This document shows, in pieces, positions 33,560 through 34,318 of a stretch of 37,515 nucleotides of DNA; position 1 is the first letter of the stretch; each line of letters opens with the position of its first letter. Made by a program: the position numbers and the translations under genes. The stretch comes from Ignavibacteriota bacterium (GTDB lineage Bacteria > Bacteroidota > Ignavibacteria > Tepidaquicellales > Tepidaquicellaceae): the NCBI GenBank assembly GCA_020437545.1, contig JAGQWH010000016.1:1-37515 (forward strand), written 5' to 3'. The notes beneath the pieces were generated by a model that did no database searches, was not told the DNA's origin, and saw only the letters and a list, made by a program, of their open reading frames with translations.

Positions 33560-33585
33560 TTTGACAATTTTCTAAAGTTGTCAAA
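33560..33585. repeat. REP-like palindrome, upstream copy
   Basis: Left TTTGACAATTTT and right AAAGTTGTCAAA, with one mismatch between the arms, so it is the least perfect of three copies. It lies 45 bases before the transposase start and ahead of its AAGGAGG ribosome binding site. Confidence 0.85.
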
Positions 33586-33630
33586 GCAAAGAAGTGTTTT
33601 AAAATATTATTAAATTAAAGGAGGAACATT

Positions 33631-34275
33631 ATGGCAAAGCTGGAACATTATTACACAAGATTTGAAGAGAATAAGTTTTATCACATTTACAACAGGGCGG
33701 TTGACAGAAAACCAATGTTTAAGAATGAAGGTAACTACGAATTTTTTCTTAAAAAATATGACAAATATCTCTCTCCTGTTTTAGAGACTCATGCGTTTTG
33801 TTTGCTGAGAGCTCATTTTGAGTTATTGGTTAGAGTTCCGGATTTGACAACTTTTAAAAAGTTGTCAAATCTCAATCCTGACCACCCGCCACACGACATT
33901 ATAAGTAATAAATTTCGAAAATTCTTTCAATCCTATGCATTAGCATTTAACAAACAGCAGAACAGAATAGGTACACTGTTTCAAACTCCGTTCAAGAGAG
34001 AGTTAATTGAAGATAAAAATAAATTAAAGGAATTTATCTATTACATACATTCAACTCCACAGCTTCATGAACTGAAAAATGACTTCAGGGACTGGAAATG
34101 GAGTTCGTTTAAAAGAGTTTTAAATGACAGACCAAGTAAATTACATAAAAAAGAAGTACTTGATTTGTTTGGAGGAAAAGAAGAATTTGTGAATTTTCAT
34201 TCAGATAAACAAAAAATGTTAGAGGCTGAGCTGTACTTTCTGAAGATCAGAAAACTTGATGATTTATCACATTAA
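33631..34275 (+). CDS. REP-associated tyrosine transposase (Y1_Tnp/IS200-like), possibly inactive
   Basis: A 214-residue HUH-nuclease-fold protein of the RAYT type. Family features are KFYHIYNRAVDRKPMF (residues 15-30), the probable catalytic Tyr102 in FFQSYALAFNKQQNRIGTLFQ, KEFIYYIHSTPQL and DWKWSSF near 160. The metal-binding HUH motif, normally NHFHLL, reads AHFELL (H62-F63-E64), so the second His is Glu. The palindrome at 33841-33871 encodes residues 71-81 (DLTTFKKLSNL), next to this motif. A strong AAGGAGG precedes the ATG. Whether it still cuts DNA is uncertain; it may be a worn-out or domesticated copy. Confidence 0.88.
   Translation: MAKLEHYYTRFEENKFYHIYNRAVDRKPMFKNEGNYEFFLKKYDKYLSPVLETHAFCLLRAHFELLVRVPDLTTFKKLSNLNPDHPPHDIISNKFRKFFQSYALAFNKQQNRIGTLFQTPFKRELIEDKNKLKEFIYYIHSTPQLHELKNDFRDWKWSSFKRVLNDRPSKLHKKEVLDLFGGKEEFVNFHSDKQKMLEAELYFLKIRKLDDLSH
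33841..33871. repeat. REP-like palindrome inside the RAYT reading frame
   Basis: A perfect palindrome with 15-bp arms (GATTTGACAACTTTT) around one central A. It begins exactly at codon 71 and is read as D-L-T-T-F-K-K-L-S-N-L. It shares the TTTGACAACTTT core with the two flanking copies. Confidence 0.93.
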
Positions 34276-34285
34276 TTTTTTTACC

Positions 34286-34318
34286 AGCTTTGACAACTTT
34301 TTAAAAGTTGTCAAAGCT
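34286..34318. repeat. REP-like palindrome, downstream copy
   Basis: A perfect palindrome with 16-bp arms (AGCTTTGACAACTTTT) around a single central T, 11 bases after the transposase stop and 15 bases before the end of the facing gene. It has no T-run, so a terminator role is not evident. Confidence 0.93.

Follow-up and report, generated by a model that had tools for sequence, protein, structure and literature searches.

Why does the gene of a presumed REP-mobilising enzyme carry a REP-like palindrome within its own reading frame, and is this stretch kept for the peptide it encodes, for the nucleic acid, for both, or simply tolerated? We addressed this question for a RAYT-like gene of an Ignavibacteriota bacterium, located in a DNA stretch of 37,515 nt that is referred to in its entirety as the window. 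The features of the locus are compiled in Table 1.

Table 1 Features of the RAYT-like locus, with positions in the window
Feature	Position	Strand	Basis or remark
Upstream flanking palindrome TTTGACAATTTTCTAAAGTTGTCAAA, imperfect copy of the same core	33560..33585	.	one mismatch
Shine-Dalgarno-like GGAGGA, upstream of the ATG at 33631	33620..33625	+	read directly
RAYT-like (Y1/HUH fold) protein, 214 aa	33631..34275	+	NF047646 (sub-threshold), AlphaFold2 model, 4er8 match
HuH motif position, here H62 F63 E64 (His-Phe-Glu)	33814..33822	+	His-Phe-His in L131, L032, L026 and L027
In-frame perfect palindrome GATTTGACAACTTTT-A-AAAAGTTGTCAAATC	33841..33871	.	identical in L131
Tyrosine motif Y138 IHSTP	34042..34059	+	Asn of YIHxNP is Thr here
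Downstream flanking palindrome, perfect 16+1+16	34286..34318	.	inverted-repeat search

The encoded protein

The identification of the gene as a RAYT in the first-pass annotation holds in the form RAYT-like. The protein scored 36.8 bits against the NCBIfam model NF047646 (REP_Tyr_transpos), below the cutoff of 80, and had no match in Pfam, while Pfam Y1_Tnp was matched by 35 of its 58 relatives. An AlphaFold2 model built from these relatives reached a pLDDT of 95.5, and its best match among solved structures was 4er8, the E. coli TnpA_REP in complex with a REP hairpin (Z 16.1, 154 residues aligned, rmsd 2.9, 16% identity; next family 9.3), which was also the sole sequence match of a profile of the 58 relatives (3.3e-07). 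The two proteins resemble each other in fold and in their association with palindromes; the E. coli protein differs, apart from the low identity, in having no in-gene REP and in its intact catalytic residues.

The motifs AHFE and YIHSTP of the window protein correspond to NHFH and YIHxNP in its closest relatives L131, L032, L026 and L027. The second histidine of HuH and the metal-ligand asparagine are both missing, and the combination of an intact HuH with Y-xxx-NP is thus absent. In E. coli TnpA_REP, two histidines and this asparagine (N119) bind the essential metal (Quentin et al. 2018, PMC6006769). Judged from these residues, the window copy is probably weak or dead as a nuclease; glutamate can still bind metal. 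The self-insertion suggested in the first-pass annotation thus did not find support: since the metal-site residues were lost, any insertion event would be older than the window copy or would have been catalysed by an intact relative.

A perfect palindrome in the reading frame

As claimed in the first-pass annotation, a palindrome lies in frame inside the transposase gene: GATTTGACAACTTTTAAAAAGTTGTCAAATC is a perfect palindrome of 31 nt (15+1+15), with arms at 33841-33855 and 33857-33871 that are 100% complementary across a 1-nt spacer. It was said to supply residues 71-81, which is correct for D71 to N80 (DLTTFKKLSN), but of the L81 codon it provides the first base only. Together with the downstream flanking palindrome it occupies the top places in the inverted-repeat list of the whole window. 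Perfect palindromes make up only 4 of the 663,552 synonymous encodings of DLTTFKKLSNL (6 in a million) and were obtained in 3 of 200,000 codon-usage-weighted random encodings, in which on average 7.6 of 15 arm positions paired. The predicted hairpin has a free energy of -18.1 kcal/mol as RNA (z -5.4, equalled by 0 of 200 shuffles) and of -13.1 kcal/mol as DNA. The rarity of palindromic encodings, the z value of the hairpin and the inverted-repeat rank rule out an origin by chance. The register, in turn, requires no selection, as only one of the three reading frames of the palindrome is open.

The strong RNA fold brings up the possibility that the palindrome acts in the mRNA, where its hairpin would slow translation or shield the transposase transcript and so limit the expression of its own gene, and ISPpu9, another REP-linked transposase, is described as being regulated by the structure of its mRNA 5′ untranslated region (PMC8450116). 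We consider such a role quite improbable here: the palindrome is located 210 nt into the gene, far from the ribosome-binding site, and the similarity of in-gene palindromes to the REPs in their own flanks, described below, is not expected of a plain mRNA hairpin. Moreover, a perfect palindrome folds alike on both strands, which makes RNA and DNA inseparable in this case.

At the protein level, residues 73-78 were predicted to form a helix (pLDDT about 97) that follows the HuH strand (62-68) and precedes helix alphaC (87-109), so that the stretch, described in the first-pass annotation as a peptide loop, is not a floppy or disordered one.

Flanking copies and copy number in the genome

Palindromes were present on both sides of the gene and had their core in common with the in-gene copy, a feature of REPtrons. 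The two flanking copies had been announced as sharing this core, and they do, the downstream one perfectly (RNA hairpin -19.6 kcal/mol) and the upstream one only in imperfect form (-13.6 kcal/mol). The outer stem of each flanking copy departs from that of the in-gene copy, and on direct reading of the sequence none of the three palindromes has a GTAG or GTGG next to it.

The first-pass annotation had also proposed a whole-genome search for the palindrome. In the 4.29-Mb assembly, a relaxed pattern matched only the in-gene and the downstream copy, to which the imperfect upstream variant, seen by eye, has to be added; such copy counts come from pattern searches, which more degenerate copies escape. 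The two matches and the variant all belong to one locus, which rules out that the palindrome forms a dispersed REP family here, and the pattern was absent from all genomes of the same genus that were searched.

Conservation of the palindrome in the close clade

The window protein forms a small clade with L131 from genome G614 (61-62% amino acid identity), L026 and L027 from Chitinophagaceae MAGs (58-59%) and L032 from genome G410 (about 52%). The in-gene bases of L131, GAT TTG ACA ACT TTT AAA AAG TTG TCA AAT CTC, are those of the window, that is, 33 of 33 nt and 11 of 11 codons are identical, whereas outside this stretch the two genes agree in 59% of amino acids and 68% of nucleotides and use the same codon for 49% of the identical residues. 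The distances from HuH to the palindrome and from the palindrome to alphaC are equal in both genes; L131 has an intact HFH and similar flanking palindromes. The identity of 33 nt against 68% in the rest of the gene favours a double constraint, on peptide and nucleic acid. As far as can be told from the sequences, the exact letters of the window copy are kept across distant bacteria better than the needs of the protein alone predict, and the double role suggested in the first-pass annotation suits a palindrome whose behaviour goes beyond that of a peptide. The identity could also stem from two recent conversions, one in each gene, by a common REP consensus.

The peptides at the insert position in the other clade members are NLTDFKETKNI (L032) and DLTGLDLETLQ (L026 and L027), with the start LTxF common to the window and L032 and DLT common to the window and L026/L027. 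None of the three genes has an in-gene palindrome, and their codons show no residual pairing or REP identity beyond that of the peptide itself. The constellation named beforehand as contrary to a double role, the same peptide in all homologues encoded by unrelated codons, was hence not observed: in L131 both peptide and codons are the same, and in L032, L026 and L027 a related start comes with unrelated codons and without a palindrome. The common start and the structured helix would suit selection on the protein alone, with the palindrome as a by-product of a needed peptide. We rejected this very improbable explanation on the codon identity with L131 over 33 nt and on the rarity of palindromic encodings, and the arms covary in other homologues (see below).

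L032, L026 and L027 are nevertheless flanked by REPs of the window palindrome's family, which comprises 24 copies in G410 and 11 in G614, almost all of them extragenic; the few overlaps with ORFs concern short or edge ORFs. The in-gene copy is thus cognate and common to two lineages, and it is dispensable, including for the spread of REPs, because L026, L027 and L032 have no palindrome in the gene and G410 contains 24 REPs without one. On both sides of the RAYT gene L026 there are alternating, BIME-like tandem arrays of REPs (GATTTACCAACTT... and its reverse-complement type; L026:1117-1405 and 2164-2452). In a separate set of five orthologues from one genus, the palindromes have single mismatches and are conserved only slightly more than the rest of the gene; the synonymous conservation is suggestive, but the sites are too few. 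Codon analysis of homologues beyond L131 was blocked by saturation of dS (about 2).

In-frame palindromes in wider homologues

We sampled 118 homologues, 115 of which had a clear loop. A strong palindrome was found between HuH and alphaC in 24 of these 115, compared with 3 elsewhere in the gene, although the HuH-alphaC region accounts for just 15% of it. One register is used by 22 of the 24, often with all three frames open; shared descent accounts for part of this agreement, most of the 24 being members of one large clade. Among 17 non-redundant palindromes in one register, 15.2 of 16 positions paired between the arms of the same gene and 9.7 of 16 between arms of different genes (0 of 20,000 permutations). 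Likewise, internal palindromes were more similar to their own flanks (mean identity 0.76) than to the flanks of other genes (0.61; 0 of 20,000), while 9 of 20 had no matching flank. In genomes G141 and G260, the copy inside the RAYT gene was the sole pattern match genome-wide.

When the loop was excluded from tree building, the palindrome trait was clustered (10 changes versus 22 in shuffles), and at least 3 changes were forced by well-supported branches. In the other large clade, as illustrated by a second structure model, that of L054, the palindrome-encoded peptide directly precedes alphaC, whereas in the window protein it directly follows the HuH strand, which makes at least two origins within the HuH-alphaC region likely. 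A single ancestral insertion behind all in-frame palindromes is unsupported, given the 10 tree changes, 3 of them forced, and the two positions.

In the sister RAYT genes L037/L042 and L053/L054, the in-frame palindromes coincide in place and register but come from different REP families, and in L037 the flanks belong to another family than the in-gene copy; this pattern suggests replacement of the insert. Two further loci were conspicuous for their repeats. L078 (G077:C165:9391-11386) consists of two identical-scoring tandem RAYT copies, each with an in-frame palindrome AGACCTGACAGGTTTTGAAAACCTGTCAGGTCT, with further palindrome copies between and around them at a spacing of about 490 nt, and KDLRGFD / KDLTGFE motifs recur in the protein loop, which looks like the outcome of an insert duplication. 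At L007:188-1045, eight hairpin copies AGACTTTTGTAGTTTT...CAGACTACAAAAGTCT spaced by about 110 nt adjoin a RAYT homologue.

Another possibility is a neutral insertion or conversion, in which a REP landed in, or was copied into, a permissive region and is either young or was re-copied from the REP pool. The identical REPs dispersed in G614 and G410, which harbour L131 and L032, and the exchange of REP families between sister genes at one and the same position are in line with it, as is the single open frame of the window palindrome, for which the register needs no selection, and Quentin et al. 2018 (PMC6006769) interpret copies of this kind as tolerated insertions. However, the window genome offers no donor pool beyond the two flanks, and these differ in the outer stem from the in-gene copy, while the in-gene copy of L131 matches that of the window exactly. 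No other pattern match exists in G141 and G260, the helix was predicted with high confidence, and part of the peptide also occurs in clade members without the palindrome. Tolerated insertion is accordingly a possibility that we take seriously but do not favour.

Genomic setting and arrival of the gene

In 28 further genomes of the window organism's family we found no additional representative of this RAYT clade, and the sampled class yielded none either, its one hit (G842) being far weaker. Because the nearest relatives occur elsewhere and neither the family nor the sampled class provided further clade members, the gene likely arrived horizontally, as far as sequence comparison indicates. A recent phage or plasmid origin was rejected, as tblastn gave no phage matches and only distant plasmid matches.

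Several copies or a clean empty site would speak for an insertion sequence that moves as a unit, in the manner of IS200/IS605; the gene is single-copy in the window genome. In G001, of the same genus, metH is followed by a gap of about 115-120 nt and then by the next gene; the RAYT gene is absent and the gap sequence strongly diverged. This gap contains a 12-nt REP arm, AGTTGTCAAATC (2 of 5000 shuffles), and a REP or RAYT may have existed at the site earlier, the relic arm being compatible with insertion as well as deletion. On account of its divergence and of the relic arm, the gap does not qualify as a precise empty site from which the ends of the element could be defined. In G002, about 6.3 kb of other genes occupy the corresponding site.

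The window genome has a second RAYT-like gene, L004 (C384:11377-11859, minus strand). In L004 and its relatives from the family, L023, L025 and L015, QFN or QFQ replaces HUH and the ORFs are intact. Between L004 and L023, dN is 0.083 and dS 0.58, values indicative of purifying selection, although the protein is probably non-catalytic. L004, L023 and L025 also have an inverted repeat, GTGTGGCACATTTT...AAAATGTGCCACAC, in their upstream regions.

Comparison with known systems

That REP palindromes are normally extragenic had been the premise of the first-pass annotation. The in-frame copy is real, but it has a precedent: Quentin et al. 2018 (PMC6006769) describe REPs of subclass 2.4 in frame inside tnpA_REP genes, between the HuH and Y motifs, and view them as tolerated, and Di Nocera et al. 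2013 reported intragenic REPs in other genes. The arrangement itself was thus published in 2018, and the window gene adds to it. It resembles subclass 2.4 (group 4 in the table of Quentin et al. 2018) in that REPs flank the gene and an in-frame copy lies between the HuH and Y motifs, more precisely between the HuH strand and alphaC; in the description of this subclass, the insertion is highly variable and occurs in Bacteroidetes among others (PMC6006769). In contrast to subclass 2.4, the window palindromes have no GT[AG]G foot, and the window protein has neither an intact HuH nor the asparagine of the Y motif. The missing foot and the degenerate catalytic motifs are new with respect to the published cases. 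Also new are the tests of DNA-level conservation and of arm covariation, which we did not find in the main texts of the relevant papers; the main text of Quentin et al. 2018 (PMC6006769) in particular yielded no DNA-level conservation test of in-gene copies.

Subclass 2.6 of tnpA_Y1, as presented by Quentin et al. 2018, is similar in its mostly Bacteroidetes hosts, in the YIH[QN]NP-like motif seen in the relatives of the window protein and in flanks without GT[AG]G, but its insertion of 21 aa lies between alphaC and beta4 instead of HuH and alphaC, with no in-gene REP reported there. In-frame palindromic repeats within ORFs are also known as the Rickettsia palindromic elements (Ogata et al., cited in PMC10969869), which according to that account measure about 150 bp and reside in unrelated metabolic genes rather than in the gene of the presumed mobilising enzyme. 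In the coding palindromes of Nematomorpha mitochondria (PMC6649704), protein and nucleic-acid palindrome are likewise kept together; these differ in length (up to 284 bp) and location (mitochondrial respiratory genes), and no transposase is involved.

A proposed dual constraint

We consider a dual constraint, in which the same bases provide a peptide helix and a hairpin site for the RAYT of this clade, the best explanation of the locus and assign it a probability of about 0.5; the nucleic-acid part is inferred. The small clade of the window gene, L131, L026, L027 and L032 has TTTGRCAACTTTT/AAAAGTTGYCAAA as its cognate REP core. One cognate copy lies in frame just behind the HuH strand and would have become a structured peptide insert, with DLTTFKKLSNL as a short predicted helix leading from the HuH strand to helix alphaC. 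At the DNA level, the palindrome is still exact and matches the REP consensus in full; selection acting on the nucleic acid would have kept it so, and the single-stranded hairpin within the gene would most likely serve as an extra RAYT recognition site and as part of the REPtron. The gene would have reached the window genome horizontally, and the enzyme that it encodes there is probably weak or inactive by now.

A more far-reaching version, which we deem unlikely, sees in the in-gene palindrome a master REP of the element that is under selection and locked in by coding; it would be kept as coding sequence, be recognised by the enzyme, persist alone, as in G141 and G260 by pattern, and reseed extragenic REPs.

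If the palindrome were merely a tolerated insertion, the window gene would be a further example of the published arrangement, extending it to REPs without a GT[AG]G foot. If the constraint on the nucleic acid is true, RAYT genes would be dual-coding, with the same bases specifying a structured peptide and the hairpin substrate of the enzyme, and the reason for the lasting association between RAYTs and REPs would become testable via a single stretch of 31 nt.
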